34,346 nucleotides of DNA from IMG/VR virus record IMGVR_UViG_3300021137_000054, positions 1 through 34,346 of that record, one strand, 5' to 3'. The translations under genes and the position numbers were made by a program. The stretch comes from a virus. Below are positions 3,713 through 29,002 of the stretch, piece by piece; positions within the stretch are counted from its first letter, which is position 1; the number at the start of each line of letters is the position of its first letter. The notes beneath the pieces were generated by a model. The model made no database searches, had not been told where the DNA came from, and worked only from the letters and a program-made list of their open reading frames with translations.

Positions 3713-4114
3713 ATGAAAATTAAAAGAAATTCACTGATATATAAAATTGCAGAATTTGGAGATCCATCTGTTGGAATGTACGGAAATACATGTGATTTTA
3801 TAAACAGCCTTATTACTGGAATTGCAAGTTTTAGTATTATGTCCTTTGCTGTAGGGTGTATGATATTTTCAATTTATCATACAATTTGCTATTTTATAGA
3901 TCCATCTATTGGATTTCGACCATCAACAGACATATCTAGTGTGATTATGGTTATGGGTTTGTTATTTAATGGAATTGTTCTATTATTTGGATCTTTTGGA
4001 TTGTATATGGAGTATAGATGGAACCATCGGGCACTAACAAAATCACCATCTAAGATTACTTTACTTTGGCGTTCATTTCGTGATAAGATATGCGTAAAAA
4101 TTGAATATGAATAA
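3713..4114 (+). CDS. Two-pass membrane protein, 133 aa
   Basis: ATG 3713 follows AAAAGGATAACAC. Hydrophobic segments at about residues 26-60 (SLITGIASFSIMSFAVGCMI onward) and 72-98 (SSVIMVMGLLFNGIVLLFGS) flank a loop containing DPSIGF. The C-terminus is basic and cytoplasmic (ALTKSPSKITLLWRSFRDK). No known family. Confidence 0.7.
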   Translation: MKIKRNSLIYKIAEFGDPSVGMYGNTCDFINSLITGIASFSIMSFAVGCMIFSIYHTICYFIDPSIGFRPSTDISSVIMVMGLLFNGIVLLFGSFGLYMEYRWNHRALTKSPSKITLLWRSFRDKICVKIEYE

Positions 4115-4147
4115 CCAAACTCATTTTTAAGAAATTTAGGAATTAAT

Positions 4148-4381
4148 ATGACAACATCATTATGTAATTGGTTTTTCTTATTTGTAATGTTTATTGGTCC
4201 AGTATTATGTATTGTTGCAATGCTTATAATTGGACTAATTGATTCGTTTAAACGCAAAGATACTGAAAACATAGAACAACGTTCAGTAAAACAATGGCGT
4301 GAAAATAATTTAAGAGCTCAACACGAAATGAGAAAAGATTCTGGATGGTATGTATACGATGACAAACAAAGAAAAAGATGA
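4148..4381 (+). CDS. Single-pass membrane protein with charged tail, 77 aa
   Basis: One N-terminal membrane helix (NWFFLFVMFIGPVLCIVAM, residues 7-31) and a strongly charged cytoplasmic helix (RSVKQWRENNLRAQHEMRKD). Its end overlaps the next gene by 23 bases in another frame. Function unknown. Confidence 0.65.
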   Translation: MTTSLCNWFFLFVMFIGPVLCIVAMLIIGLIDSFKRKDTENIEQRSVKQWRENNLRAQHEMRKDSGWYVYDDKQRKR

Positions 4382-8610: not shown

Positions 8611-9198
8611 TTATAATTTTAATTTTTTAAGATTAAATGGGAGGCGTCCTGGAACACATTCTTCTGGACAGGATGAGCTTAAGAAAGAACGTTGTCCATT
8701 ATTATACCATTTATAATTTTCTCGTGACTTAGTTCTTTGGGCAATTGCATCAGCCGGTTGTTGTTTTCCACGTTTTACTGCTGCATTATTTTCTTTATGT
8801 TCCGCAGTTTGTGGTCCATAACGTTGCCCTTTCTTAACAGATGCCATATGCTGTTTGTATTCTGCAGTGCGAACTTTTCCAGAATTAGCAATTGATAATT
8901 TTTTAATAGTTTCAATAGAATGCTTACCACTATGACCAGCTTCTTCTTTAAGATTAGCCCATTCAGTGCTTTCAACTACATTCCATAAATTACTATAATA
9001 TAAACCCCATTCTTCAATTTCGCTCATGCTTTGACATTCTTTGAGAATTATTGTTTCAACATCATATCCATGTTTTTTGATGTGTAATTTCCATTTAACT
9101 CCAGAACCTTTATAATTGTATGGGTCTGGTTTAGTTGTCATTCCTAAATATTTAAGGCCGGTTTTTCTATGTGTTTTTTGGTATAGATAAATAATCAT
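8611..9198 (-). CDS. GIY-YIG homing endonuclease
   Basis: 195 residues. Catalytic domain at 1-90: YLYQ (variant GIY), KYLGMTT (variant YIG), a DPYNYKGSG loop, Glu at 62/63 before WGLYYSNLW, and N82. Residues 91-160 hold NUMOD3-like DNA-binding repeats (SIETIKKLSIANSG, TAEYKQHMASVKKG, TAEHKENNAAVKRG), which in this family wrap along the target. It stands alone and antisense between plus-strand genes, as a free-standing mobile gene. Its leader carries a late-promoter-like box and a nested hairpin shared with the three other GIY-YIG genes here. Confidence 0.9.
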   Translation of the reverse strand: MIIYLYQKTHRKTGLKYLGMTTKPDPYNYKGSGVKWKLHIKKHGYDVETIILKECQSMSEIEEWGLYYSNLWNVVESTEWANLKEEAGHSGKHSIETIKKLSIANSGKVRTAEYKQHMASVKKGQRYGPQTAEHKENNAAVKRGKQQPADAIAQRTKSRENYKWYNNGQRSFLSSSCPEECVPGRLPFNLKKLKL

Positions 9199-9264
9199 GT
9201 TGATACTCCATATAGTATTAAAGTAGATGGGAAGTCCAATTCCGCGATCTACACTTATTTATCA
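9199..9264 (-). ncRNA. Structured 5' leader of GIY-YIG gene (copy A)
   Basis: Read on the minus strand: GATAAATA box, then outer stem GTAGAT/ATCTAC (9223-9228 with 9247-9252), unpaired CGC against C, inner stem GGAA/TTCC (9230-9233 with 9240-9243), six-base loop. A second small stem ATACT/AGTAT brackets the GG of the ribosome site just before ATG. The same fold occurs at three other GIY-YIG genes with different paired bases. Confidence 0.65.
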
Positions 9265-12384: not shown

Positions 12385-13350
12385 TTATTTTGGATGATTG
12401 CGATTATAAGTTTCTTTATATTTTAATCTTGACTGCAGTTTTTGTTCGGCGGTCCTACCACTTTTTGTTTGTTTTTCTTTCCGTTTTCGTTCATTCTCCT
12501 GTTCAGGAGTTCTAGCAGCATGAGAATTTTTTAGTTTTAGTGTTATTACTAATTTTTCTTCTGGTGTTTTAGCATCAAATGTAGCTTTGCGCTTTGCTAT
12601 AATATCTAATTTTTCTTCTAACGGTTTTGCCTCGATGGTTGCTTTAAGTGTTGTTTTTTGTTTTTCTATTTGAGTTTGTTTTTCTTCAGGTGACCTAGCA
12701 TTCTTTGTTTTCCATTCTTTTTGTTTAGTTTCCAATTTTTCTTCTGATGTTCTATTAATTTTAGCTAATCTTTGTTTTTCTTTCGTTGCTAATTTTTCCT
12801 CTGGAGATTTTGCATCTTCTGTAGCTTTTTTCTTTGCATTGACCAATAATCTTTCTGCTGGGGTTCTTGAAGTTTTTGCTAGTCGTTGCTTTTCTTTAAT
12901 TGTATAGTTTTCTTCTGCACTTCTAGCTGCTTCTGTAGCTTTTTTCTTTTCTGCAATTAATGTTTTTTCATACAAACATTTAGCCTTTCTAGTTATTGCA
13001 GTTTTTGCAATAGAATCTTCAGTAGCATGAAATTTATTACCACCGTTATTTTTATTAAGCCAATATGGACTTTTCGCTGCATTAATTCTTGTTAAGAACT
13101 TATGTTCCCAAGCGACTGTATCTTTTCTAGTTTTAAATATTTTTCGTATTTGAACAGAAAATAATTCCTTGCCATGTAGAGCAATTAGATTTTTTATTTC
13201 TTTTGATGATGTAAAATATGTCACCCAAAACTCAGTTGGATTTGCCACATTTTTTCTACTATTTGCATACCTACATCCGTAATAACGTTGGCCGGTTATT
13301 AGAAATGTTATGCAATATGTATACGGGACATAAATAAGTTTGTTGGTCAT
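12385..13350 (-). CDS. GIY-YIG endonuclease with nine 19-residue repeats
   Basis: 321 residues. Catalytic domain 1-110: YTYCITFLITGQRYYGCRYA (GIY and YIG as YTY/YYG with Arg), ALHGKELFSVQI, WEHKFL with the metal-binding Glu, NKNNGG. From about residue 140 to the end there are roughly nine tandem repeats of 19-21 residues with the consensus A-[RK]-[ST]-[PA]-E-E-K-L then a basic run. They resemble NUMOD3-type helices that track along DNA, but regular tandem copies in this number are unusual. Its leader has the hairpin shared by the other GIY-YIG genes. Confidence 0.85.
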   Translation of the reverse strand: MTNKLIYVPYTYCITFLITGQRYYGCRYANSRKNVANPTEFWVTYFTSSKEIKNLIALHGKELFSVQIRKIFKTRKDTVAWEHKFLTRINAAKSPYWLNKNNGGNKFHATEDSIAKTAITRKAKCLYEKTLIAEKKKATEAARSAEENYTIKEKQRLAKTSRTPAERLLVNAKKKATEDAKSPEEKLATKEKQRLAKINRTSEEKLETKQKEWKTKNARSPEEKQTQIEKQKTTLKATIEAKPLEEKLDIIAKRKATFDAKTPEEKLVITLKLKNSHAARTPEQENERKRKEKQTKSGRTAEQKLQSRLKYKETYNRNHPK

Positions 13351-13450
13351 AATTGTTTCCTTAAATAATTGTTAGAATGATTAATGCTTATGGGAATTTG
13401 CCGTTCCGCGATAAGCAACCGATTTTCTCAATCGATGTATTTATTTATAT
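13351..13450 (-). ncRNA. Structured 5' leader of GIY-YIG gene (copy D)
   Basis: On the minus strand: TATAAATAAATA box (13440-13451), a small CGAT/ATCG hairpin, then outer stem GCTTAT/ATAAGC (13386-13391 with 13411-13416), CGC against C, inner stem GGAA/TTCC (13393-13396 with 13404-13407), seven-base loop, and TTAAGGAAACAATT before ATG. The outer stem differs at most positions from the other three copies yet stays paired. Confidence 0.6.
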
Positions 13451-14275: not shown

Positions 14276-14569
14276 TTAATTCATCTCAATTGACAACAAT
14301 GCCATTGAAAGTAAAGCTTCATTCTTAACACAGATCCAATAAATTCTTTTAGAGTAATGACCTTTACTCTCTACAGTTTCCCATTTACCGGCATATTTAA
14401 TATGACTAGCCATGCACCAAATATACCTAGTAGGACGTGGGTACCGTTCTTCTAAATAATTTTTAATGTTCATGTAATTAGAAATTCCTTCACCTGCACC
14501 AAATCTTACAGCGTGGGTAAATCCATGCTTAAATGCCCTATTTCTTCTATCTAACTTTACTATCTTCAT
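14276..14569 (-). CDS. Last gene of the array, 97 aa (divergent tail)
   Basis: Starts MKIVKLDRRNRAFKHGFTHA; Gly/Ala-rich, then NIKNYLEERYP and a tail with KNEALLSMALLSIEMN that recalls the F-x-NEAD...LLRW ending of the upstream family but lacks LRW. Its ribosome site (GAGGTGGAGTAA) is the MRWSK-coding end of the gene before it. Function unknown. Confidence 0.65.
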   Translation of the reverse strand: MKIVKLDRRNRAFKHGFTHAVRFGAGEGISNYMNIKNYLEERYPRPTRYIWCMASHIKYAGKWETVESKGHYSKRIYWICVKNEALLSMALLSIEMN

Positions 14570-14742
14570 TTACTCCACCTCATTAAGAACCAATTACGAT
14601 CTTCTTCATTTTCAAACCAAAATACGCCAGATTTGTGTGTCCAACGTGTACCACGATTACCAAATGATGATTTCATCCACGCTGCTTGTTCTTTGACAAT
14701 AGACGACAAACAGCAATGTTTAATCCAATAATTATACTTCAT
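14566..14742 (-). CDS. LRW-tail family protein, 58 aa
   Basis: Start ATG 14742 (MKYNYWIKHCCLSSIVKEQA) overlaps the previous stop by ATGA; the longer frame is an artefact of reading the neighbour's tail. Contains AAWMKSSFGNRGTRW, the central W...FG...W pattern of the family, and ends FENEEDRNWFLMRWSK. Confidence 0.75.
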   Translation of the reverse strand: MKYNYWIKHCCLSSIVKEQAAWMKSSFGNRGTRWTHKSGVFWFENEEDRNWFLMRWSK

Positions 14743-14996
14743 CCCCATCTCAATAAAAACCAATTCATATCTTCTCTATTTTTAAAATGAAAATGAGTTC
14801 CTGCTACGAGCACACGGTCTCTTCCAAAATTATGACACCAGTCATGAATTGGTGGCAAATAGGTTTCATGCCAACCAGAACCTGGTTGATATAAATCATA
14901 CCAATTAATGCTATAGATATCACACAATGAAAAAATAAGCCCATATTCATACTCTCTATCTAAAAAAGAAAATCTGTGAAACGTATATTCTTTCAT
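14739..14996 (-). CDS. LRW-tail family protein, 85 aa
   Basis: ATG 14996 sits in GAGGTGGTCATGA, formed by the end of the preceding gene. Starts MKEYTFHRFSFLDREYEYGL; central IHDWCHNFGRDR; ends FKNREDMNWFLLRWG. Acidic and aromatic, soluble, unknown function. Confidence 0.75.
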   Translation of the reverse strand: MKEYTFHRFSFLDREYEYGLIFSLCDIYSINWYDLYQPGSGWHETYLPPIHDWCHNFGRDRVLVAGTHFHFKNREDMNWFLLRWG

Positions 14997-15220
14997 GACC
15001 ACCTCAATACAAACCAATTATAATGCGCTTCACTTTCAAATGTAAGATATGTTTTTTCTAATGTTGCGTGAAATGGTTCTAACTCTTTATTGATATTATC
15101 AATTCTAGCAATTCTATCAACATGTAATAATCCAACTAAACTCTTACTCTTAAGAACAGTCTCTTGGTAAAAGTTCAACCACCCTGGAACAGTTATATAA
15201 TTCTTTCTAATCTTTTTCAT
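14993..15220 (-). CDS. LRW-tail family protein, 75 aa
   Basis: Starts MKKIRKNYITVPGWLNFYQE behind AAGGTGGGGAC. Middle is helical (ARIDNINKELEPFH); ends FESEAHYNWFVLRWS. Its N-terminal half shares little with its neighbours, while the last 15 residues match them closely. Confidence 0.75.
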   Translation of the reverse strand: MKKIRKNYITVPGWLNFYQETVLKSKSLVGLLHVDRIARIDNINKELEPFHATLEKTYLTFESEAHYNWFVLRWS

Positions 15221-15425
15221 GTCCCCACCTTAAAATAAACCAAGTATAATCTGCATCACTTAATGAATATTGATATGTCCCAGGCACCCATTTTGCCGAC
15301 TTGTATCCAATACTATGTAAAAACATCTCGCCACCTTCTCTGGATGTATTTCCAATTCTACTAGAGAAGTGATTACTAAATAATTTTCGAAGTTCTGGAT
15401 ATGAAACTATTCGTATTGTTTTCAT
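15207..15425 (-). CDS. LRW-tail family protein, 72 aa
   Basis: ATG 15425 (MKTIRIVSYPELRKLFSNHF) overlaps the previous stop. Unusually the LRW motif is not terminal: after TWFILRWG come HEKD, because the next start lies four codons earlier in another frame. Unknown function. Confidence 0.7.
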   Translation of the reverse strand: MKTIRIVSYPELRKLFSNHFSSRIGNTSREGGEMFLHSIGYKSAKWVPGTYQYSLSDADYTWFILRWGHEKD

Positions 15426-15640
15426 GAAAACCTCAATATAAACCAATTACGGTCTGCTTCATTTTTAAATTTAAATACATTACCGTAATTGGTGCTAGTA
15501 TAAATCCAACTACTGGATTTATTCAAGTTTTGTGGTTTACCCCATTGTTCTTCACACCATTTATACATTTCTTTACGTTTCTTAAAATCTTCATCCGTTA
15601 AGACAATATGAAATGTATATAATTCTTCATCAATATACAT
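15422..15640 (-). CDS. LRW-tail family protein, 72 aa
   Basis: Starts MYIDEELYTFHIVLTDEDFK; central KEMYKWCEEQWGKPQN; ends FKNEADRNWFILRFS, a W-to-F variant of the motif. Preceded by the 15646-15915 gene, so its ribosome site (AGGAAATAATCATA) is not the usual GAGGTGG. Confidence 0.75.
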   Translation of the reverse strand: MYIDEELYTFHIVLTDEDFKKRKEMYKWCEEQWGKPQNLNKSSSWIYTSTNYGNVFKFKNEADRNWFILRFS

Positions 15641-15645
15641 TATGA

Positions 15646-15915
15646 TTATTTCCTATAAATATTATTACCATTCATGAATTGGACCATAACAAATTCTTCT
15701 TCTGTATATTGTTTGCCATTTAAAAACCATGCTTTATACCCATTTGGGTATTCAACAGCAGGGCCATCCAGTCTATGTCTTTTGCCATTTAACCACCATT
15801 CTTTATGACCAGTTATACCTTCATATGCTGGACCATCTTCTCGGTGTAATCGGCCATTTAATCGCCATGATTTAGTACCGTCTGGATATTCATATTGTTT
15901 TGGTTGTGTTTTCAT
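15646..15915 (-). CDS. YwqK/MORN-like repeat protein, 89 aa
   Basis: Three copies of an about 22-residue repeat: YPDGTKSWRLNGRLHREDGP, then GHKEWWLNGKRHRLDGPAVE, then YPNGYKAWFLNGKQYTEEEF. This is the hydrophobic/Gly-Asn repeat seen in YwqK-type proteins, forming beta-hairpin arrays. It is the clear outsider in the array: no LRW tail, but it starts at ATG 15915 in the usual GAGGTGGTCATGA junction. So it may have been inserted into a cassette position. Confidence 0.75.
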   Translation of the reverse strand: MKTQPKQYEYPDGTKSWRLNGRLHREDGPAYEGITGHKEWWLNGKRHRLDGPAVEYPNGYKAWFLNGKQYTEEEFVMVQFMNGNNIYRK

Positions 15916-16160
15916 GACCACCTCAATAAAAACCAATTTGCATATGCTTCGTTTCTAAATTTAACTTGAATTGTGCCAATAGTTGTTAGATAGAATGCCC
16001 ATTCCTGGTCTTTAAGATAATAAGAATATCCACCGTTCTCTAAACCACCAAAACTTTCAACCAGCCAGTTGTATACCTGATTGGCATTTGATGGAACTTT
16101 TATTTCAATACAATAAAGTTTTTGACCAAGTAAGTCTGTGCTGCATCTAATATTGTTCAT
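15912..16160 (-). CDS. LRW-tail family protein, 82 aa
   Basis: Starts MNNIRCSTDLLGQKLYCIEI; central QVYNWLVESFGGLENGGY; strand-rich second half; ends FRNEAYANWFLLRWS. Ribosome site AAGGTGG from the preceding gene's LRW codons. Confidence 0.75.
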   Translation of the reverse strand: MNNIRCSTDLLGQKLYCIEIKVPSNANQVYNWLVESFGGLENGGYSYYLKDQEWAFYLTTIGTIQVKFRNEAYANWFLLRWS

Positions 16161-16365
16161 TTGACCACCTTAACATAAACCAATTACGATCTTCCTCCGT
16201 TAAAAATCTAATGCTAGGATAATCAAATTCTGTATTTACTACATGCCATTTTATTCCATGTTCACCAAATGTATCAGTACACCAATCAATATATTCACTT
16301 AATAAGAAACGTTCGTTATTTTCTAAATCTATAAGATATATAAAAACTTCATTAAATGCTTTCAC
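16147..16365 (-). CDS. LRW-tail family protein, 72 aa (GTG start)
   Basis: GTG 16365 in GAGGTGGTCGTGA, so the start codon has drifted but the junction is kept. Reads MKAFNEVFIYLIDLENNERF; central YIDWCTDTFGEHGIKW; ends EEDRNWFMLRWS plus NEQY. A clear example of the W-C-x-x-x-FG core. Confidence 0.75.
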   Translation of the reverse strand: MKAFNEVFIYLIDLENNERFLLSEYIDWCTDTFGEHGIKWHVVNTEFDYPSIRFLTEEDRNWFMLRWSNEQY

Positions 16366-16604
16366 GACCACCTCAATACAAACCAATTACGATCTTCTTC
16401 ACGTAAGAAACAAAACAAATCACAATCATAGGATTCACGATAATCATGAACCCATCGTTCATATTGTTCACCAAAAGTTTCTTCACACCATTCCCATAAT
16501 GCTTCTGCCCAATCTACATTTTCTTGCAATGTAGATTCTATTTTCAATCTATCATCATAGTATAAATTAACCTGCCAGACAAATTCTTCTTTATAAAGTT
16601 CCAT
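16362..16604 (-). CDS. LRW-tail family protein, 80 aa
   Basis: ATG 16604 (MELYKEEFVWQVNLYYDDRL) follows GTGGAGTTAAA; the frame is open far upstream but those codons are antisense or in the neighbour. Core WEWCEETFGEQYERW; ends REEDRNWFVLRWS. Strongly acidic. Confidence 0.75.
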   Translation of the reverse strand: MELYKEEFVWQVNLYYDDRLKIESTLQENVDWAEALWEWCEETFGEQYERWVHDYRESYDCDLFCFLREEDRNWFVLRWS

Positions 16605-16605
16605 T

Positions 16606-16833
16606 TTAACTCCACTTAAAAATAAACCAGGTCTTGTGTTCTGGTTTTTTAAATGTAATTTTAAATCCATCATACAAATTACCACCAATAGTTGCATTAA
16701 ATTCTGAATTTAACATAGTATCTAACTCTACACTATTGACAATTTTATAATGTTTAACATAATGTTTAATAAAATTTATCCAATATAACGGACACCTGTG
16801 TAGTTCGCCTGGTAATTGAATTACATTATCCAT
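16606..16833 (-). CDS. LRW-tail family protein, 75 aa
   Basis: Starts MDNVIQLPGELHRCPLYWIN; middle helical (KHYVKHYKIVNSVELD); ends FKKPEHKTWFIFKWS, a diverged version of the motif. One base overlaps the end of the membrane-protein gene before it. Confidence 0.7.
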   Translation of the reverse strand: MDNVIQLPGELHRCPLYWINFIKHYVKHYKIVNSVELDTMLNSEFNATIGGNLYDGFKITFKKPEHKTWFIFKWS

Positions 16834-17180
16834 TATGCTACCGTATATTCAATATCATCTGGTAATTCAAAATGAAAATTAAACTTTGGAAAACGTTCAT
16901 GTGCAACCTCTAATGCTTCGTCTACTGATTCACCTTGTGATACAAATGTCCCACATTCTTTAAACCACATCATAATTTGATTACCATGTTTCTCAACTTC
17001 TAATTCTACATACTCATATCCCTCATCACTTTCAACAGTATATGATCTAGTAGCGTTGTCAAATAACTCTATAACTGATTTTGGATCTCGTGCATAAGCA
17101 CGCATTATTATTTTATTCCATAAAAATCCACCAATAAACATGCCAAACAAAAATGCACCAATTACTAATAAAATCATCAT
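16833..17180 (-). CDS. Membrane-anchored protein, 115 aa (intact parent of the 737-900 relic)
   Basis: N-terminal membrane helix with Gly zipper (LLVIGAFLFGMFIGGFLW), then a cytoplasmic domain: VIELFDNATRSYTV, strands EYVELEVEKHGNQIMMWFKE, CGTFVSQGESVDEALEVAHE, and an acidic end. The domain faintly recalls HicB-type folds, but catalytic or binding residues are not evident. Not an LRW family member. A half-length frameshifted copy exists at 737-900. Confidence 0.75.
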   Translation of the reverse strand: MMILLVIGAFLFGMFIGGFLWNKIIMRAYARDPKSVIELFDNATRSYTVESDEGYEYVELEVEKHGNQIMMWFKECGTFVSQGESVDEALEVAHERFPKFNFHFELPDDIEYTVA

Positions 17181-17181
17181 A

Positions 17182-17631
17182 TTATTTTCCTCTTGTTAGT
17201 TTACTTAATAATAAAAAATTGTCATAACTTTGTTGTAAAGCTGGGTTCTCTAATATTTCTTCAGCTTCTTTAATCATTTCTGAAACACCAGCTCTCACAG
17301 CTTCCATTATAGTAGAAGTTTTCAATCTACACAAGTCTTCCCCATAGACTTCTCTCATACGGTCCCATGCTTCTTTTTGTTCTTGTGTATATGGTGGTAT
17401 TTCTGGAGTATAAGTCAACTTATCTACAATAATAGCAGCAATGCGGTCTTCTGCATAACTTCCAGCAGCAATCATTGGTGCAAATGCTGGTTCAATGTTA
17501 TATCGTCTAGATCTAGACCCTGGTTTGCATACTGTTAGATGAGTGCCTTCTGGCCAAGAATCGTTAAATTCATTGTCATATTCACGTGCAGGAATATATT
17601 TTCTGCCTTTTTTGATAAAATAAGTAGTCAT
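17182..17631 (-). CDS. Hypothetical protein, 149 aa
   Basis: First gene of the third-to-last operon, after the promoter at 17660-17688 and ribosome site AGGAACCATCA. Starts MTTYFIKKGRKYIPAREYDN; middle with TPEIPPYTQEQKEAWDRMRE; helical end NFLLLSKLTRGK. Proteins of this build recur in T4-like phages without assigned function. A 14-codon relic of its 3' end lies at 691-735. Confidence 0.8.
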   Translation of the reverse strand: MTTYFIKKGRKYIPAREYDNEFNDSWPEGTHLTVCKPGSRSRRYNIEPAFAPMIAAGSYAEDRIAAIIVDKLTYTPEIPPYTQEQKEAWDRMREVYGEDLCRLKTSTIMEAVRAGVSEMIKEAEEILENPALQQSYDNFLLLSKLTRGK

Positions 17632-17659
17632 TGATGGTTCCTGTAATCGTTAAAGTTCT

Positions 17660-17688
17660 ATTATAACAATTACAGGAATAGATGTCAA
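17660..17688 (-). promoter_or_regulatory. Sigma70-type promoter (minus strand)
   Basis: On the minus strand TTGACA (17688-17683), 17 bases, TATAAT (17665-17660), 29 bases before ATG 17631. Drives 17631 down to 14276. Confidence 0.85.
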
Positions 17689-17948
17689 GTAGAAAACTTG
17701 ATTGTGTAGAATGTGTAATCTGATGGTTTAATATAAGCTGTTATATAATATTCGTATCCAAGGGTATATGGATGGTAATGTTTAACTACCTCTATATGTA
17801 TACAATGATTACTAACCCATTGTCCTTCTTCAGAATTTAGCCAAATATCTAATATTTCATTCTGTGTCGGTGATGTCATATATATTACCACTCTATGAAA
17901 TATTTTTCTTTCATACACGGAGTCGTTAAATATCTTAAAATTATCCAT
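17685..17948 (-). CDS. Distant LRW-tail family protein, 87 aa
   Basis: Starts MDNFKIFNDSVYERKIFHRV; beta-rich; ends KPSDYTFYTIKFST, a weak form of the family tail. Its last codons overlap the -35 box of the next promoter. Ribosome site AAGTGGGG from the upstream gene's LLKWG codons. Confidence 0.65.
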   Translation of the reverse strand: MDNFKIFNDSVYERKIFHRVVIYMTSPTQNEILDIWLNSEEGQWVSNHCIHIEVVKHYHPYTLGYEYYITAYIKPSDYTFYTIKFST

Positions 17949-17951
17949 GTA

Positions 17952-18137
17952 TTATCCCCACTTTAACAAATACCAAGTAAAATCTGATTCATTTCTAAAG
18001 TAGATATAGTTTTGAAACTGAAACCATCGGTTGGTATCAACTTTAAATTGTTCAGTACACCAGGTAACTTGGTCCCATCGTGTACTATTACAACTAGATA
18101 GCAGTACACCATAATAATCGTGTAATTCTTCAGACAT
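17952..18137 (-). CDS. LRW-tail family protein, 61 aa
   Basis: Starts MSEELHDYYGVLLSSCNSTR; core VTWCTEQFKVDTNRW; ends FRNESDFTWYLLKWG. One of the shortest members, essentially just the core and the tail. Overlaps the upstream gene by eight bases. Confidence 0.75.
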   Translation of the reverse strand: MSEELHDYYGVLLSSCNSTRWDQVTWCTEQFKVDTNRWFQFQNYIYFRNESDFTWYLLKWG

Positions 18138-18411
18138 TTTTATAATTGGTACTAGTTTCTTCTTTGTCCCACTTTAAAACAGCCCATGTATATTTTGCTT
18201 TTGCTTCTTCTTCATTGTCATATTTCCAACCAAACTTATTGATTCTATTTTGACTATTCAATATAGAATCATATTCTGTCATCTTATCTGCCGCTGTCCA
18301 AAACCGGTGTCTTAAATTTAAATCTATTTGATAATATTTTTGTTTTCTTACAGAATGTTCAGATAGCGAAAATTTATCAGATTTGTTTAATAATTTATGG
18401 CTATTTCTCAT
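18130..18411 (-). CDS. LRW-tail family protein, 93 aa
   Basis: Basic N-terminus MRNSHKLLNKSDKFSLSEHS; middle helices; EEEAKAKYTWAVLKWD near the end followed by an extra nine-residue tail (KEETSTNYKNV less two) that reads through the next start. Ribosome site AAGAGAATA. Confidence 0.7.
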   Translation of the reverse strand: MRNSHKLLNKSDKFSLSEHSVRKQKYYQIDLNLRHRFWTAADKMTEYDSILNSQNRINKFGWKYDNEEEAKAKYTWAVLKWDKEETSTNYKNV

Positions 18412-18418
18412 TATTCTC

Positions 18419-18637
18419 TTATTTTTCTTCTTTTTTAGGAACTCTTTCAGACCATCTTAATAAAAAGAAATCACGATGGCCTTCATTTTTAAATGACCAT
18501 AACCTATCAGTCATAAAAATTCCACAATTAGAGCTTTCACTCCAATCAATCATTTCATCGCGTAAATCATCATTCATTTCATCACGGTCAAATGATAGAC
18601 CTGGTAGTTTGAACATTCCCACGGATACGTGCTTCAT
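18419..18637 (-). CDS. LRW-tail family protein, 72 aa
   Basis: ATG 18637 (MKHVSVGMFKLPGLSFDRDE) chosen over GTG 18649 because GTGGAGAGTTAT is properly spaced. Core EMIDWSESSNCGIF; FKNEGHRDFFLLRWS then a basic tail ERVPKKEEK. First gene of an operon. Confidence 0.75.
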   Translation of the reverse strand: MKHVSVGMFKLPGLSFDRDEMNDDLRDEMIDWSESSNCGIFMTDRLWSFKNEGHRDFFLLRWSERVPKKEEK

Positions 18638-18666
18638 ATAACTCTCCACATAAAATTAAAAATAAT

Positions 18667-18695
18667 ATTGTATAATAAAACTGGTTAAATGTCAA
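18667..18695 (-). promoter_or_regulatory. Sigma70-type promoter (minus strand)
   Basis: Minus strand TTGACA (18695-18690), 17 bases, TACAAT (18672-18667), 30 bases before ATG 18637. Drives 18637 down to about 17685. Confidence 0.8.
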
Positions 18696-19006
18696 CTCAA
18701 AAATTCACTATACTTTAATAAGAAAAAAGTTCTCTTTGGCTCACTATAAAAATCTAAGTGTATCATATTGGAATAATACCCTCTAGATGGTTGAATCATA
18801 TAAGTTTCATCTACAATTTTATTAGCATATTGTTTCATGAATTCATCGTACATTGGATTTTCTATCCATGTACGATGCGACCTTGATGTAAATCCCAAAA
18901 CTTTCTTAGTTTTTTCTCTTATGGCTAGAACACTTTTTGGATAATCTTTATACATTTCTATTAATAAATTATGCCATTGCATCTCTGATATTATTACTGG
19001 TTTCAT
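18692..19006 (-). CDS. LRW-tail family protein, 104 aa
   Basis: ATG 19006 lies in GAGGTGGCAATGA. Longest family member: helical N-terminal half (EMQWHNLLIEMYKDYPKSVL), basic middle, and an end FYSEPKRTFFLLKYSEFLS with a K-Y variant. The last codons overlap the promoter at 18667-18695. Confidence 0.7.
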   Translation of the reverse strand: MKPVIISEMQWHNLLIEMYKDYPKSVLAIREKTKKVLGFTSRSHRTWIENPMYDEFMKQYANKIVDETYMIQPSRGYYSNMIHLDFYSEPKRTFFLLKYSEFLS

Positions 19007-19215
19007 TGCCACCTCATTAAGAACCATTGATAATGCGCTGTACTTTCAAATGTGAGAACACGATCTTGATATATTGCATTAAATTTTTGTAATTCAGCAT
19101 TACGAATTTCCAACCACAGTTCTTCATCATTCCCAGACATGCTATCACAATGATCACGAAGATTCAATATTACGGTGTCTGGCATATAACTGATACTTAT
19201 TTTTACTTCATCCAT
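19003..19215 (-). CDS. LRW-tail family protein, 70 aa
   Basis: MDEVKISISYMPDTVILNLR; central EELWLEIRNAELQKF; ends FESTAHYQWFLMRWQ. The tail FESxAHYxWF matches the 14993-15220 product closely, so these two are recent relatives. Confidence 0.75.
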   Translation of the reverse strand: MDEVKISISYMPDTVILNLRDHCDSMSGNDEELWLEIRNAELQKFNAIYQDRVLTFESTAHYQWFLMRWQ

Positions 19216-19466
19216 TTTAATCTAAACCATGTCATTTGGGCACGTTTTAATTTCCTAGCATCAAATTCTACATACCATTCTGTCTCACGACCGTAATCAT
19301 TCCAGTGATACCGTTTAATCATTGCCCAACCTTTGCCAGTTATATAGTCGGTAGACCAAAATTTGTGGTCATCTATTGGTCCAAAATGTTTTATTAACCA
19401 TTCTTGAAGTTCTGTGTATTCAGGACTATCATATTCTATTAAATCTTTAACTTGTTTTCTAAGCAC
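19203..19466 (-). CDS. LRW-tail family protein, 87 aa (GTG start)
   Basis: Only GTG 19466 gives a full product (MLRKQVKDLIEYDSPEYTEL); no good ribosome site is visible, so coupling to the upstream gene, which it overlaps by eight bases, is likely. Core LQEWLIKHFGPIDDHKFW; ends QMTWFRLKWMK. Confidence 0.65.
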   Translation of the reverse strand: MLRKQVKDLIEYDSPEYTELQEWLIKHFGPIDDHKFWSTDYITGKGWAMIKRYHWNDYGRETEWYVEFDARKLKRAQMTWFRLKWMK

Positions 19467-19731
19467 TGTGTTTTATCAAATAAAATGTTAAATATTCATT
19501 ATCCAAAATAGCCATATCAGTTGGATATCTATTGTGTTCGCCTTTGTACCATGTATTGGTATTCGCATTTAAGATTTGTATCTTAACCATCTTTGGATTG
19601 AGTTTTATAACTTTTGCTACTTCTAATCTATTATAGACACTAACAGCTACAAAATCACCAACTTTGATCTTACGACCGATTATATCAAAATGAACTAGTT
19701 CCTTTTTAGGGGTTCTCTTCTTCTCTGTCAT
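19459..19731 (-). CDS. KOW/SH3-like small protein, 90 aa
   Basis: ATG 19731 (MTEKKRTPKKELVHFDIIGR) behind GGGAAGTAT; the longer frame starts inside the neighbour. The core KIKVGDFVAVSVYNRLEVAK, then VIKLNPKMVKIQ, looks like a small SH3-type barrel with a basic N-terminus, seen in other myoviruses. It ends LTFYLIKHSA, a possible relic of the LRW tail. Confidence 0.7.
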   Translation of the reverse strand: MTEKKRTPKKELVHFDIIGRKIKVGDFVAVSVYNRLEVAKVIKLNPKMVKIQILNANTNTWYKGEHNRYPTDMAILDNEYLTFYLIKHSA

Positions 19732-19996
19732 ATACTTCCCATGTATTATTTTCATAGTCCCAATGTCTTGTATCATAAACTGTATATTCCAGAGTATAAC
19801 CAAACAACCCTAATTTAGTATTCAACCCTGCGTGGTCACAGTTAATACTTAAACAAAACTCGATATTAATAATTTGATCTGTGCGATATAGATTAAGTTC
19901 CCATGCTTTATGGGTTGTAAGTAACCCATTTGTCCCCCAAATCAAATTCCAAGTATTAGACCAAGGATTTGAAATTAAAAAATTAAAAGTTATCAT
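19706..19996 (-). CDS. Hypothetical protein, 96 aa
   Basis: MITFNFLISNPWSNTWNLIW; Trp-rich beta protein with C at FCLSINCDHAGL and an acidic end (DREEENP). The N-terminal part resembles sequences in which a phage protein mimics its partner by a beta sandwich, but I recognise no family. It overlaps the next gene by 26 bases. Confidence 0.65.
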   Translation of the reverse strand: MITFNFLISNPWSNTWNLIWGTNGLLTTHKAWELNLYRTDQIINIEFCLSINCDHAGLNTKLGLFGYTLEYTVYDTRHWDYENNTWEVYDREEENP

Positions 19997-20353
19997 TTAT
20001 ATCACCAAACAAAATGCAAGATAGCCAATATAACACAAATGATGAAAAAGCTGGTCAAGACCGATATGACACCAAAATTGTTTATCATTCATATCACGAT
20101 TACCATAATTCATTTTAATCCAATCGATATGGTAATGTAAAATTATATCAATTATACCAATAAATAATGCTTGGTTGAATGGAACTATGAATAAGAAAAT
20201 AGCATAAGTTAAAAGACCATGTTTAACACTATGCCCTACACCAATCATATTACCATATATGCCTTTTGTCTGAACTTCATCTTGCGATTGATTCATGAAA
20301 TCCACATGGTAATGTTTTAATTGTAAAAATACAAGGACTAATAATATGTCCAT
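19997..20353 (-). CDS. DUF3307-family membrane protein, 118 aa
   Basis: Hydrophobic start (MDILLVLVFLQLKHYHVDFM), then helices with the family's conserved polar residues: GHSVKHGLLTY, DIILHYHIDWIK and KQFWCHIGLDQLFHHLCYIG. Histidines and Asp facing the membrane suggest metal binding, but the role of DUF3307 proteins is unknown. First gene after the promoter at 20378; ribosome site CGGAGATTTTT. Confidence 0.8.
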   Translation of the reverse strand: MDILLVLVFLQLKHYHVDFMNQSQDEVQTKGIYGNMIGVGHSVKHGLLTYAIFLFIVPFNQALFIGIIDIILHYHIDWIKMNYGNRDMNDKQFWCHIGLDQLFHHLCYIGYLAFCLVI

Positions 20354-20377
20354 AAAAATCTCCGAATTTAAATTATT

Positions 20378-20406
20378 AGTATACTACAGTTATTTGTTAT
20401 TGTCAA
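20378..20406 (-). promoter_or_regulatory. Sigma70-type promoter (minus strand)
   Basis: Minus strand TTGACA (20406-20401), 17 bases, TATACT (20383-20378), 25 bases before ATG 20353. It overlaps the end of the 20390-20725 gene. Confidence 0.8.
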
Positions 20407-20725
20407 GGTTTTCTTCAGCTTGACATATTTGTTTAACCATATTGTAATTGTTCTTGGCATTTAATAATGCTGGATACTTTTCAAGTATATCCTTTTCATT
20501 CATCTCTTCTATCATCTTTTGTTTAGCCCATTCTAATATTTGTACTGCTTCAAATGATAAATCTACCGCAGCATCTCCTTGTAATTCGTACCACGCGGTA
20601 CCAGAATTATATTCTACTCTACCATTTTTATACCTCATTTGACCACATTCTGCTAATGGGTCTAAATTGGATGAGTTAAAATTATAAGATGTTAGATATC
20701 GCCCTGTTGTTATTTTATTGATCAT
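20390..20725 (-). CDS. Phage protein with RYKNGRVEYNSGT pattern, 111 aa
   Basis: Contains MRYKNGRVEYNSGTAWYELQ followed by DLSFEAVQILEWAKQKM and an acidic helical end. The layout of a beta hairpin that reads N-G-x-x-E-Y and then a long helix recurs in many phage proteins; function not known. ATG overlaps the previous stop (ATGA). Confidence 0.8.
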   Translation of the reverse strand: MINKITTGRYLTSYNFNSSNLDPLAECGQMRYKNGRVEYNSGTAWYELQGDAAVDLSFEAVQILEWAKQKMIEEMNEKDILEKYPALLNAKNNYNMVKQICQAEENLDNNK

Positions 20726-20898
20726 AGTTCTTTCACGTTAAATTTTAATAGTAAAAATGTTAAATCTGAATCATTTGTCAGTCTAAGATCCACTAAATTT
20801 TTTAAATCCCACCGAGTGCCATAGCCACCCCAATTATTATTGATATACCAAATTACTTCCATTGGGTCTTCAAATTTCCAAATTGGTATTGATATCAT
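20722..20898 (-). CDS. LRW-tail family protein, 58 aa
   Basis: Reads MISIPIWKFEDPMEVIWYIN and then NNWGGYGTRWDLKNLVDLRL, ending LTFLLLKFNVKEL. Core EVIWYINNNWGG..W and the tail identify it as a diverged member. Its ATG overlaps the preceding stop and its stop overlaps the next ATG, which fills what would otherwise be an unexplained gap. Confidence 0.7.
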   Translation of the reverse strand: MISIPIWKFEDPMEVIWYINNNWGGYGTRWDLKNLVDLRLTNDSDLTFLLLKFNVKEL

Positions 20899-21116
20899 AT
20901 TCCAAACTTAATCCTAAATAACATATACTTTTGTTCATTTACAATTATGTAGTTTGCAGTAATATACCCATCTATTGTTATAGATATTCCATATGTTTTT
21001 TCAATATATTCAGACAAATCTGCAAATTTCTTATGACATTCTGTAGATGCAATAGTTCTAATTATTTGATAAAACTTATCACGTTTTATACGTTCTTCGG
21101 CTAATTTTGGATCCAT
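20895..21116 (-). CDS. LRW-tail family protein, 73 aa
   Basis: ATG 21116 (MDPKLAEERIKRDKFYQIIR) shares a base with the previous stop and uses AAGGTGGAAATA as ribosome site. Core DLSEYIEKTYGISI; ends EQKYMLFRIKFGI, where LRWS has become RIKFG. Confidence 0.7.
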   Translation of the reverse strand: MDPKLAEERIKRDKFYQIIRTIASTECHKKFADLSEYIEKTYGISITIDGYITANYIIVNEQKYMLFRIKFGI

Positions 21117-21349
21117 TATTTCCACCTTAATATAAACCAAGTGTACACATCTTCTCTAAGATCATAGCAATTTTCTTCCTGCCAATAATCCTTAAATCTA
21201 CGGTTTGCAGTATACCGCCATCCATCTGATTGGTTAATAATCCAATCGTTTATCTCTGGTCTATTAGATCTAATCGTATACCATTTTTCATTTAAATCTT
21301 GGACAACCCGAACATTTTCATATGGTTTTGTAAATGCAGATGGAACCAA
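21116..21349 (-). CDS. LRW-tail family protein with start lost by frameshift, 77 aa visible
   Basis: Only TTG 21349 is in frame, without ribosome site. The expected junction start (ATG 21389, in the ATGA overlap with the previous gene) is present but out of frame; it would join after removal of one base from the T7 run (A7 at 21359-21365 on the plus strand), giving MKNLCSEIFFNHILVPSAF. Core EINDWIINQSDGWRY; ends REDVYTWFILRWK. Either decayed or a sequencing indel. Confidence 0.6.
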   Translation of the reverse strand: MVPSAFTKPYENVRVVQDLNEKWYTIRSNRPEINDWIINQSDGWRYTANRRFKDYWQEENCYDLREDVYTWFILRWK

Positions 21350-21385
21350 AATATGATTAAAAAAAGATTTCAGAACACAAATTTT

Positions 21386-21586
21386 TCATTCTGAACACCA
21401 TCTTAATGCAAACATTGTTGAATCAATATCACGATATAACGTTAAAACACCACCTTGCATATTAAATTTCATTTTACGTTCTCGAAGCCATTCTGCTACA
21501 TTATTCCATTCTACTGTTGTTAGACCTTTTTCGTTATTACTTAATAAAAAGCTATTATTTTCAAATGGCATTTTACGTATTCTCAT
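21386..21586 (-). CDS. LRW-tail family protein, 66 aa
   Basis: ATG 21586 (MRIRKMPFENNSFLLSNNEK) in GAGGTGGGGATGA. Core VAEWLRERKMKFNM; ends DIDSTMFALRWCSE. Basic N-terminus, unlike most acidic members. Confidence 0.75.
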   Translation of the reverse strand: MRIRKMPFENNSFLLSNNEKGLTTVEWNNVAEWLRERKMKFNMQGGVLTLYRDIDSTMFALRWCSE

Positions 21587-21864
21587 CCCCACCTCAATGC
21601 AAACCAATTACGGTCTGCTTCATCCTTTATTAAAATTCTTTCAGATCCAAGCCAACACCATTTAGGATTTACTTCACCCATACATGCTATTTCCTCATAT
21701 TCATAGTATTCACAACTTGGTCCAAACTGTTCCCAACACCATTGGCGGATATCACGTACTCTAGCCATATTTTCTGATTTATTATAATGATACATTAACG
21801 CCATATAGGTAAAATATGAATTACCATTGTGTCTACCATCCATCTTTTGTATTTTTATTTTCAT
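21583..21864 (-). CDS. LRW-tail family protein, first gene of the array (93 aa)
   Basis: MKIKIQKMDGRHNGNSYFTY; core VRDIRQWCWEQFGPSCEYYE; Cys and Trp-rich middle; ends KDEADRNWFALRWG. Directly behind a consensus promoter (21892-21920), so it heads the whole minus-strand array. Confidence 0.8.
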   Translation of the reverse strand: MKIKIQKMDGRHNGNSYFTYMALMYHYNKSENMARVRDIRQWCWEQFGPSCEYYEYEEIACMGEVNPKWCWLGSERILIKDEADRNWFALRWG

Positions 21865-24306: not shown

Positions 24307-24819
24307 ATGGATTGTTTATTACTAAATGCATCAGGAATGCCTGTTAGTATAATGCCACTCAGCACTATATCATGGCAGGATTCAATAAAATATATGGTTT
24401 TAGAAAAAGCCGATGTTGTGCTGTGGCACGACAATTGGACCATTCGCTCTGCAAATTGGAAAACTAATGTCCCAGCTGTTCTAATGCTCCGTGAATATTT
24501 AAAACCAAAAACTACAGTAAAATTTAGTCGGGCAAGTTTACTGGTAAGAGATGATGGAATATGTCAATACTGCGGAACTACACTTAATTTAAAAACTGCT
24601 ACAATAGATCACGTTATCCCATCATCAAAAGGTGGAAGAACTAGTTGGAATAATTGTGCACTGTCATGTTCAAAATGTAATTCGGAAAAGGGAAATTCCT
24701 ATCCATGGAAGAGCCCATATAATACTCCTTATAAACCTGATTATTTTGAATTAGTAAACAAACGTAAGAAATTTGGTTTTGAAGTTAAACATAAGGAATG
24801 GTTACATTATATTTTTTAA
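24307..24819 (+). CDS. HNH endonuclease
   Basis: 170 residues. Zinc pairs C86/C89 and C121/C124 frame the catalytic DH (D101-H102) with N115 and N125/K128: pattern CQYCG...[12 protein letters not shown]...CSKCNSEKG. This is the HNH_5-type homing nuclease common in phages. N-terminal 70 residues are a separate domain found with such HNH proteins. It overlaps, tail to tail, the minus-strand GIY-YIG gene by 18 bases, making two mobile nucleases in a convergent pair. Confidence 0.9.
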
Positions 24820-25596
24820 CGTATCTGATACAGTTTCTGGTGTCCTAAGCCAGAAAGTATATCCAGCAAACTTTCCTTTTTGTATAATTTCCCCATCATA
24901 CTTGTTAATAAGACAATAAATATTTCGTGCTTTAGCACCTATATTTGATGCAAAATCTGGTAGTGATATAAAAACATTAATATTTCCTTTTGGATCTTTT
25001 ACAATTAATTTTTTACATTGTTCTCTAGTTTTTTCGTTTCCAATTTTACCGTGTAGTGCCAATTTATTTCTTTCATCGGAATTTAAAAACCGTTTGGATT
25101 GTGCATTAGAGCAAGTAGCTTTATATATATCCGACATAAATTTTCCTTTATTTTTTGATGGTCTTCCTTTCATAGCTAATGATAATTTTAGATTTTTTCT
25201 GCCTGTATTAGCAAGTCTTGTTTTTTCCACTGCTTCTCTAGGCATTATTCTTCCTGTACATATTTTGGACATATGTATTTTATATTCTTCGGTATGTTTA
25301 TATCCATGAGCACCTTCACCACCATCAGTTAGATTTCTTAAAATACCAGTTCCATTATTTTTCCTACCATACCATCGAATTACTCTACGTTCAATTGCAA
25401 ATGCTCCAATACTACTTAAATTTGATTCAATAATAACTATTCGTTTTTTATCAGTTGGGACTTTTACAGTATGGTCATTTGAGAAAGCTCGATAACCAGT
25501 TCCCTTGCCAATATAGTAAGGGGTTCCATCTTTTTTACGAAGATATGCGTATACATAAAATCTAAAAATAGGATCGTTGTTTGTATAAATATTCAT
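24802..25596 (-). CDS. GIY-YIG homing endonuclease
   Basis: 264 residues. Catalytic domain: YVYAYL (14-19), [12 protein letters not shown] (YIG at 28-30 with Arg36), Glu69 in [10 protein letters not shown]88 in RNLTDGG. NUMOD3-like repeats at about 97-175 ([41 protein letters not shown]) and a NUMOD1-like helix-turn-helix at the C-terminus ([20 protein letters not shown]), which would add specific DNA contacts. Free-standing, with the shared structured leader upstream. Confidence 0.9.
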
Positions 25597-25668
25597 GTTG
25601 ATACTCCTTCAAAGTATTAAAGTAGTTAGATGTTGACGCATCGTGAACTACATCTTTATTTATTAAAA
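25597..25668 (-). ncRNA. Structured 5' leader of GIY-YIG gene (copy B)
   Basis: Minus strand: AATAAATAAAGAT box, outer stem GTAGTT/AACTAC (25622-25627 with 25646-25651), CAC against T, inner stem GATG/CATC (25629-25632 with 25639-25642), six-base loop; then ATACT/AGTAT around AAGG before ATG. The inner stem sequence differs from copies A, C and D but remains fully paired. Confidence 0.65.
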
Positions 25669-27487: not shown

Positions 27488-27730
27488 TACTGCAGTTAAC
27501 GCATTTATTAAGTCTTCAATCAGTAATTCTTTATCAGTGAACGGATCAGATACCCATATAGTTTCTATAAATTCTTTGCCATGTTTTTTATAGTGTTTCT
27601 TCCAATATGTGCCGGACCCTAGATACTTATAAGGATCAGATTCTGTAGTTTTACCAAAATATTTAAGACCTGTTATTGAATGTTTTTTAATATAAAGATA
27701 TGTTGGTGGTATTTCTGTATAAATACACAT
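27455..27730 (-). pseudogene. Truncated GIY-YIG endonuclease, 91 aa
   Basis: ATG 27730 (MCIYTEIPPTYLYIKKHSIT) matches the start position in the shared leader. It keeps YLYIKKHSITGLKYFGKTT, DPYKYLGSG and KKHYKKHG, aligned with the first 55 residues of the 8611-9198 enzyme, then ends after KELLIEDLINALTAV with no Glu-helix, Asn or NUMOD repeats. The lost part coincides with the end of the 27254-27487 gene. So it is probably a deleted, inactive remnant, although a short reading frame remains open. Confidence 0.75.
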
Positions 27731-27798
27731 GCTGATGTCCTCCATAGACGTTAGAGTAGTTGGGAACGTCAATTCCGTGAACTACATCTTTATTTATC
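27731..27798 (-). ncRNA. Structured 5' leader of GIY-YIG gene (copy C)
   Basis: Minus strand: GATAAATAAAGAT box, outer stem GTAGTT/AACTAC (27756-27761 with 27780-27785), CAC against C, inner stem GGAA/TTCC (27763-27766 with 27773-27776), loop TTGACG; then GTC...GAC around ATGGAG and ATG. It survives although its gene is truncated. Confidence 0.65.
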
Positions 27799-29002
27799 TC
27801 GAATACCTTTTCATTACGATAGTCAACGTTTCAACAAGATCGGAAATCATACCATCGGTGTGGTTCGGAGTAGGGGCGAACCTCAATCGTTCAGTACCAA
27901 CTTCAACTGTAGGAAAATTTATGGCTTGAACGTAAATGTTATAATCATTTAACAAAATATCACTTATCTCTTTGGCTTTCTTTGCATCACCAATTATTAC
28001 TGGAACAATGTGGGTTTTTCCATCCATCACTGGTATATTGTATTCTCTCATAAGAAATCTTAATTTATTCGCACGTTCTTTAATTTTCTCTCTTATTTCA
28101 TTATGATCTTTTAAATATTTCACAGCAGCCAATGCACCAGCACATATTACTGGACTTAGTGATGTTGAGAATATAAACCCAGCCGCAATACTTCTGATTG
28201 CATCTACTACGATGGCATCAGCAGCAATATATCCACCCTGAACTCCATATGCCTTACCTAATGTTCCATTAACAATATCAACTCGATCTTGTAATCCAAG
28301 TTCTTCTAATAATCCAGCACCAGTTGGACCTATTACGCCTATGGAGTGGACTTCATCAAGATATGTTATGGCATTATACATATCAGCTAAATCACAAATT
28401 TCTTTAATATGGCTAATATCACCATCCATACTGTATACACTTTCAAACACTATACAAGGAGTATTCCCATTTTCAACTGCTTTCTTTAAACAACTTTCTA
28501 AATCTTCTAAATCATTATGTCTGAATATTTGTTTTGGTGCTCTACTATAACTCATACCAACAATTAGACTATTATGATTTTTGCTATCACTAATAAATTC
28601 AATATTGTTAATGATCTTAGATAATGAAATCAATGATGACTCATTTGCCACATATGCTGAAGTAAATAACAATGCTTTTTCTTTCTTATGTAATGATGCC
28701 AATTCATGTTCAAGTGCAACGTGGTAATGGCTAGTACCAGATATATTTCTAGTACCACCAGACCCAGCACCAGTCATATCTAATGCTGTTCTCATTGCAT
28801 CTAATACTACTTTAGACTGACCCATGCCCAAATAATCATTTGAACACCAATTGACAATGTTCTTAATAGCATATGGGCCATACCATATTGCATTAGGAAA
28901 TTTACCTTGTTCTCGCAGTATGTCATTGAAAACACGATACTTTCCATTATCTTTTAAATTTTGTATTAAATTGTTGAAAGGAGTTTTATTAATCATTTCC
29001 AT
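27794..29002 (-). CDS. hemA: 5-aminolevulinate synthase (C4 pathway)
   Basis: 402 residues, full length for bacterial ALAS. It condenses glycine and succinyl-CoA to 5-aminolevulinate, the first tetrapyrrole precursor. Seen: WCSNDYLGMGQ, GAGSGGTRNISGT, PLP ring-binding DEVHSIG (D216, H219), catalytic Lys250 in NGTLGKAYGVQGG, and FIFSTSLSP. AONS/KBL relatives share the fold, but NDYLGM, GGTRNISGT and the C-terminal RLRFAPTPNH favour ALAS. All key residues are intact, so it is probably active and would raise host haem or other tetrapyrrole supply during infection. Starts ATG 29002 (ATG 28996 is possible). Confidence 0.93.
   Translation of the reverse strand: MEMINKTPFNNLIQNLKDNGKYRVFNDILREQGKFPNAIWYGPYAIKNIVNWCSNDYLGMGQSKVVLDAMRTALDMTGAGSGGTRNISGTSHYHVALEHELASLHKKEKALLFTSAYVANESSLISLSKIINNIEFISDSKNHNSLIVGMSYSRAPKQIFRHNDLEDLESCLKKAVENGNTPCIVFESVYSMDGDISHIKEICDLADMYNAITYLDEVHSIGVIGPTGAGLLEELGLQDRVDIVNGTLGKAYGVQGGYIAADAIVVDAIRSIAAGFIFSTSLSPVICAGALAAVKYLKDHNEIREKIKERANKLRFLMREYNIPVMDGKTHIVPVIIGDAKKAKEISDILLNDYNIYVQAINFPTVEVGTERLRFAPTPNHTDGMISDLVETLTIVMKRYSR

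Follow-up and report, generated by a model that had tools for sequence, protein, structure and literature searches.

A mobile two-hairpin element at the start of phage homing endonuclease genes that may specify a structured antisense RNA

Four similar hairpins ahead of four endonuclease genes raise the question of what is conserved at the start of these genes, and on which strand it acts. The window analyzed here is the whole of IMG/VR record IMGVR_UViG_3300021137_000054, a viral genome fragment of 34,346 bp. A first-pass annotation described nested hairpins on its minus strand, each with a six-pair outer stem, a CRC bulge facing one base, a four-pair inner stem, and a loop of six or seven bases, and proposed that they represent an unnamed conserved RNA preceding every GIY-YIG start at a similar distance. 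All four are present as described, with these stems, bulges, and loops, and each lies upstream of a GIY-YIG ORF at a similar distance from its start. When both strands were scanned mechanically for this architecture (6 bp, a 3/1 internal loop, 4 bp, and a loop of 5–8 nt), about three dozen candidates emerged with G-U pairs allowed; those with at least four G-C pairs are exactly the four described hairpins, with no others in the window. A covariance model trained on copies from other phages alone recovers the four at 91, 84, 82, and 31 bits. A weak match of model R2 at 17619–17680 (20.6 bits) has neither a GTAG stem nor a homing endonuclease gene (HEG) and was judged to be due to chance.

The described hairpin is real, but it is only one part of a conserved element of about 80 nt, which also contains a second hairpin and two flanking late-promoter boxes. 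On the HEG strand, the order is the late promoter TAAATA, five nucleotides, hairpin P1, TCTA, hairpin P2 with the Shine-Dalgarno (SD) sequence, CAGC, five nucleotides, and TATTTA. The corresponding hairpins of the opposite strand are denoted P1' and P2'. The features of the four copies are collected in Table 1. In copy 1, a 5-nt spacer separates the antisense box from G 9199, where an antisense RNA is predicted to start (+1); this RNA is predicted to fold into exactly two hairpins at -15.6 kcal/mol. Copy 2 is a longer variant, in which the outer stem of P1' is GCTTAT/ATAAGC and an extra small hairpin, CGATT/AATCG, separates P1 from the HEG late promoter. Elsewhere in the window, an HNH endonuclease ORF at 24307–24819 adjoins the HEG of copy 3 and has no element of its own, and the minus strand from 14276 to 21864 carries about 25 small ORFs, many with an NWF(I/L/V)LRWS-like end, that form a paralogous family.

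Table 1. Coordinates of the four copies in the window; promoter boxes and antisense RNAs are predictions.
Copy	Feature	Position	Strand	Remarks
1	Antisense late-promoter box GATAAATA	9186..9193	+	In HEG codons 2-4; HEG strand reads TATTTATC
1	Predicted antisense RNA	9199..9264	+	P2' 9200-9221, P1' 9223-9252, U-rich tail; R2 82.9 bits
1	HEG late-promoter box GATAAATA	9256..9263	-	
1	GIY-YIG homing endonuclease ORF, 195 aa	8611..9198	-	phrog_314, E=9.4e-14
2	Antisense late-promoter box CATAAATA	13329..13336	+	HEG ATG upstream, inside P2
2	Divergent predicted antisense RNA	13342..13450	+	Long P2'; P1' 13386-13416; R2 37.6 bits
2	HEG late-promoter box TATAAATA	13442..13449	-	Pushed upstream by extra hairpin
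2	SegE-like GIY-YIG endonuclease ORF, 321 aa	12385..13350	-	PF19835, E=1.3e-8
3	Antisense late-promoter box TATAAATA	25584..25591	+	
3	Predicted antisense RNA	25597..25665	+	P1' 25622-25651; R2 90.5 bits
3	HEG late-promoter box AATAAATA	25657..25664	-	
3	GIY-YIG endonuclease ORF, 264 aa	24802..25596	-	phrog_15526, E=1.4e-24; also phrog_314
4	Antisense late-promoter box TATAAATA	27718..27725	+	
4	Predicted antisense RNA	27731..27799	+	P1' 27756-27785; R2 88.0 bits
4	HEG late-promoter box GATAAATA	27791..27798	-	Overlaps stop codon of upstream aminotransferase gene
4	GIY-YIG HEG, 3'-truncated, 91 aa	27455..27730	-	268 aa in relative L326

The element precedes hundreds of phage HEG ORFs in many lake-water and related phages, at up to 13 copies per genome. 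A scan of viral contigs with a pattern combining the late-promoter box and the hairpin returned at least 120 matches, so that the failure to find further copies that would have undone the first proposal did not occur; nearly all of the matches listed lead into GIY-YIG or HNH endonuclease ORFs. Two further viral scans, selecting other parts of the element, returned at least 120 matches each, and these sequences are interrelated, so counts of leaders are not independent. Twenty large contigs hold 94 copies, with a maximum of 13 in one genome. The only cultured phage among the matches listed is Rhizobium phage RHph_I1_18, in which the element (MN988519, 80289–80372) precedes an HEG that is annotated as hypothetical. 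A strict pattern gives no match in a collection of bacterial and archaeal genomes, and model R2 finds no copy in the five T4-like phages tested (T4, KVP40, Aeh1, S-PM2, and Aeromonas phage 25). A blastn match to Variovorax phage V45v66 is GC-rich and coding-like, lacks the element, and was judged to be due to chance. Consistent with the view that this is no named RNA, Rfam returns nothing on the leader at the gathering score or at E<=1, and no account of such an element was found in a literature search that covered few subscription papers. One viral contig that carries the element (L071) also encodes a permuted tmRNA at 3995–4359 (RF04321, 79.7 bits).

Downstream of 60 leaders examined in six genomes, the ORFs belonged, with few exceptions, to the GIY-YIG and HNH homing endonuclease families, an assignment made by family matches; four are truncated, one encodes a zinc-finger protein, and one further ORF encodes what we take to be an EDxHD-like protein. 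The tie to GIY-YIG genes proposed at first thus holds for that family but not as a limit, since HNH and other endonucleases are also preceded by the element. The leader is found on about 46 of 110 phrog_314 matches in 20 contigs and is therefore not obligatory for HEGs. In L017, L086, and L303, the HEG is gone and the 3' half of its leader with it.

Leader and HEG also move together. A 384-bp tract of the window, 27515..27898, is about 99% identical to relatives L326 and L407, whereas the flanking genes are 69–86% identical. The tract contains the HEG, the leader, and about 100 bp of the host gene, an aminotransferase (27794–29002) of class I/II that we take to be 5-aminolevulinate synthase-like. 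Read from these identities, a recent homing event moved the HEG and leader together, with co-conversion of the flank. Relatives without an HEG at the aminotransferase site have no leader, and L327 has a leader there with a more diverged HEG. The homing cassette brings a replacement 3' end of the aminotransferase gene, and L326 and L327 retain remnants of the original host-gene 3' end after the HEG. In the window, the C-terminus of the truncated HEG (IEDLINALTAVL) runs into such a remnant, as if shortened by a deletion at common ATTGAAGA letters. At the site of copy 3, the homologue of gene 25680 in L407 directly follows another ORF, indicating that the cassette split this gene from its context. 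An empty-site comparison between contigs G010 and G019 was discarded because both proved to be one genome.

The strand on which the structure is selected can be read from the pairs that depart from Watson-Crick geometry. In the sense reading, 65 leaders contain 79 such cells: A·C or C·A accounts for 53 of them, G·U for 9, and other combinations for 17. Counted as distinct events of pair, type, and genome, the numbers are 24, 8, and 15, respectively. One P2 pair holds 24 of the 53 A·C cells, and the excess at that pair could be inherited rather than recurrent; without it, A·C still exceeds G·U by 29 to 9. The middle base of the bulge and the single base opposite it provide an independent test. 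Across 177 distinct hairpins, this position is G-C in 110, A·C in 42, A-T in 25, and G·T in none, where 15.5 would be expected (Fisher p=1e-12). Because an A·C on the HEG strand is a G·U on the opposite strand, this set of pairs is allowed on the opposite strand and not in the sense reading. The minus strand, on which the first-pass annotation folded the hairpin, is thus probably the wrong one, given the 53 cells that are wobbles on the opposite strand versus 9 on its own. Its bulge of CRC against one base becomes, on the opposite strand, a G-C, G·U, or A-U pair flanked by two bulged Gs. Our first working hypothesis, that the sense leader is the functional RNA, was demoted by this asymmetry. 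The claim of a conserved structured element with compensatory changes is upheld, and covariation is very strong in the sense reading as well.

Folding of alignments points the same way. With the two strands of 40 loci aligned separately, RNAalifold gives a consensus of -20.45 kcal/mol and 19 pairs, 15 of them doubly changed, for the antisense strand, versus -13.31 kcal/mol and 13 pairs for the sense strand. Because a sense-structure model was used to pick these loci, the selection bias works against the antisense result. In the antisense structure, 99.1% of cells pair, and covariation is 0.497 versus 0.212 ± 0.011 in shuffles, none of which reaches the observed values. On this strand, P2' gains an invariant G·U (40/40), and TCTA/CAGC covaries with TTTA/CAAC. 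The predicted antisense RNA of the 9199 copy and of other leaders folds into two adjacent hairpins, an 8-bp P2' and a P1' with two bulged Gs; single-sequence minimum free energy (MFE) folding leaves the extra bulge pair open in two of the window copies. The tail of the RNA is U-rich but interrupted, and a terminator scan of both strands of the copies at 25584–25664 and 27718–27798 detected no intrinsic terminator, P1' included. Within these alignments, the substitution patterns show that the structure is conserved on the opposite strand rather than on the HEG strand. The wobble asymmetry suggests that these selfish HEGs probably carry a built-in antisense RNA.

The boxes at the two ends of the element have the placement expected of promoters. 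In T4, a late promoter is an 8-bp TATA box at -13 to -6, roughly a helical turn ahead of the start (PMC2988020). The box consensus on the HEG strand is N(A/C)TAAATA, and the spacer from TAAATA to P1 is 5 nt in 145 of 189 leaders and 3 nt in 34; the spacer from CAGC to TATTTA is 5 nt in 152 of the 189. When the spacer is 5 nt, transcription toward the HEG would begin (+1) at the G of GTAG, and opposite-strand transcription at the G of GCTG, the complement of CAGC. The length of P2 varies freely, whereas the promoter spacings are fixed. In a set of 102 leaders picked by the 3' half only, 101 have TAAATA, nearly always 5 or 3 nt before GTAG, and 101 have a CGC or CAC bulge. TATTTA falls within the first codons of the HEG in all three reading frames, and its distance to CAGC is held even when the start codon precedes CAGC. 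Among 122 leaders chosen regardless of TATTTA, 107 retain it, the exact box being missing in about 12%. Its codons are under synonymous constraint, with ATT used for 59 of 61 isoleucines versus 40% elsewhere (p=4e-20). Counting against an antisense promoter, the -12 base is looser on the antisense than on the sense side in the frame unconstrained by coding. TAAATA is enriched 6.6-fold before the ORFs of one leader-bearing phage, with similar preferences at -13 and -12, and a gp55-family (late-type) sigma factor is encoded in 11 of the 20 large contigs. A late box lies 4–5 nt before the ATG of many ORFs in leader-bearing phage G010 (L314–L321), and many of its late messages are predicted from this spacing to be leaderless.

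The conservation, structure, strand, HEG association, and joint mobility read from these alignments lead us to propose, with about even confidence, a portable HEG control module in which convergent late promoters and a structured antisense RNA limit endonuclease translation. Two T4-type late promoters would face each other about 65–70 bp apart. The outer one (TAAATA, N5, GTAG...) would initiate the HEG mRNA, and the inner one (TATTTA in the first codons of the HEG) would initiate an opposite-strand small RNA at the G of GCUG. The resulting antisense RNA of about 65 nt would consist of two successive hairpins followed by a U-rich tail, and we infer that it ends after P1'. Its P2' would be of 8 bp, usually with an anti-SD CCU in the loop, and its P1' of 11 bp with two bulged Gs. 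The predicted RNA is fully complementary to the HEG leader, including the SD, and to the start codon as well where the ATG precedes CAGC. Late in infection, this stable RNA would pair with the leader and limit translation of the endonuclease. Repression would act in cis and perhaps also in trans among the up to 13 copies of a genome. If so, the element would define a new family of phage sRNA, structured and antisense, with its own late promoter, swappable among unrelated HEG families, mobile, controlling late translation, and possibly acting in trans, a reading to which we give slightly less than even confidence.

The closest analogue, functional and not homologous, is RNA-OUT of IS10/Tn10, an antisense RNA of 69 nt that keeps ribosomes from binding the transposase mRNA and acts more strongly at high copy number (PMC5006887). 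Like RNA-OUT, the phage element is multicopy and has a predicted opposite-strand promoter near the start of a nuclease gene of a mobile element, a predicted structured RNA of roughly 70 nt complementary to the translation initiation region, and an antisense-strand fold that is stable and under selection. In contrast to RNA-OUT, it has two conserved hairpins, phage late promoters, and unrelated nuclease families, and its activity is a prediction.

The gene context bears on what an opposite-strand promoter might do. HEGs with a leader are antisense to both neighbors in 69 of 127 cases, against a background same-strand adjacency of 77%, so that they would need a promoter of their own. Their upstream neighbor is divergent in 62%, compared with 23% opposite-strand neighbors in the background, and the median distance from the antisense box to the neighboring ORF is 37 nt. 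These values, together with the separation of gene 25680 from the context that its L407 homologue retains, would suit an alternative in which the opposite-strand promoter and structured RNA form a new 5' UTR for the displaced host gene and ease the cost of insertion; T4 HEGs do embed promoters for downstream genes (PMC2988022). However, a promoter serving the divergent neighbor should relax where there is none, and TATTTA is kept in 35 of 36 leaders with a non-divergent upstream neighbor versus 65 of 76 with a divergent one. We consider this alternative unlikely.

A functional sense leader, in which P1 would be a 5'-terminal hairpin guarding the late HEG mRNA from 5'-end-dependent decay and P2 would present the SD, gains from the 5-nt spacer, which puts the invariant G of the first P1 pair on the predicted +1, from the stability of P1 (about -8.8 kcal/mol), and from the strong sense-strand covariation. 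It is nevertheless quite unlikely, because the sense-strand pairs that fail are precisely the ones forming G·U on the other strand, the bulge pair is never G·T, and TATTTA and the extended junction bases of P2 are left unexplained. Equally improbable to us is a trans-acting small RNA whose two hairpins with C-rich loops would target other messages of the phage or host, the HEG cassettes serving only to encode it. The many copies per genome and the anti-SD CCU in the P2' loop are in its favor; no intact element is seen away from an HEG start, however, and the loss of the 3' half along with the HEG speaks against it.

The wobble pattern could also arise in DNA, which likewise tolerates G·T better than A·C. 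The HEG-complementary strand might then form a single-stranded DNA hairpin recognized in replication or homing, consistent with an element that travels with the HEG. This possibility is very unlikely, given that the element is situated in the expression region and has promoter-like spacings at either side, that P2 is free in length while these spacings are fixed, and that unrelated nuclease families share it.

The antisense module proposed here can also be set against the HEGs of T4-like phages. An RNA structure and a late promoter at the start of the HEG are shared with the leaders of I-TevI, I-TevII, I-TevIII, segB, and mobE of Aeh1. In early transcripts, the hairpins of those leaders sequester the ribosome-binding site (RBS); for I-TevI, the position of the late promoter keeps the structure out of the late mRNA (PMC2988022). 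Unlike in I-TevI, both P1 and P2 are located entirely 3' of the predicted HEG +1, the structure is conserved on the other strand, and the SD is predicted to be mostly unpaired, with a mean probability of 0.62–0.64 with or without upstream sequence. The leader of seg43 of Aeromonas phage 25 also has a hairpin just upstream of the RBS, a simple 8-bp stem (GGGGTTAT/ATAACCCC) with neither a late box nor a second hairpin. Homology to it was rejected because the structures differ and R2 finds nothing in that genome. The free-standing seg and mob cassettes of T4 share with the present ones the spread by homing with flank co-conversion and the GIY-YIG and HNH nucleases; several T4 homing cassettes have no promoter of their own (PMC2988022), whereas those described here carry a putative promoter plus the antisense module. 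A read-through switch of the I-TevI kind, a logic known for T4 HEGs (PMC2988022), in which a TAAATA/TATTTA helix (P0) would close a three-way junction around the start region in transcripts arriving from upstream, while late transcripts would begin inside it and stay free, is highly improbable: the boxes are complementary and P0 appears in the MFE of three window copies, but its energy is weak and its mean probability 0.24, its flanks do not covary clearly, TATTTA disappears with no compensating change, P0 makes no difference to the predicted accessibility of SD and AUG, and sense read-through would be rare because over half of the HEGs are antisense to both neighbors.

The asymmetry between A·C and G·U provides a clean example of how the strand of a structured RNA can be assigned. 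Rhizobium phage RHph_I1_18, a soil phage available in culture, would allow the proposed antisense control to be tested. If the proposal is correct, selfish nuclease genes of phages would resemble some transposons in having a built-in RNA control module, here an exchangeable one, and unrelated nucleases across large environmental phages would have taken up the same module.
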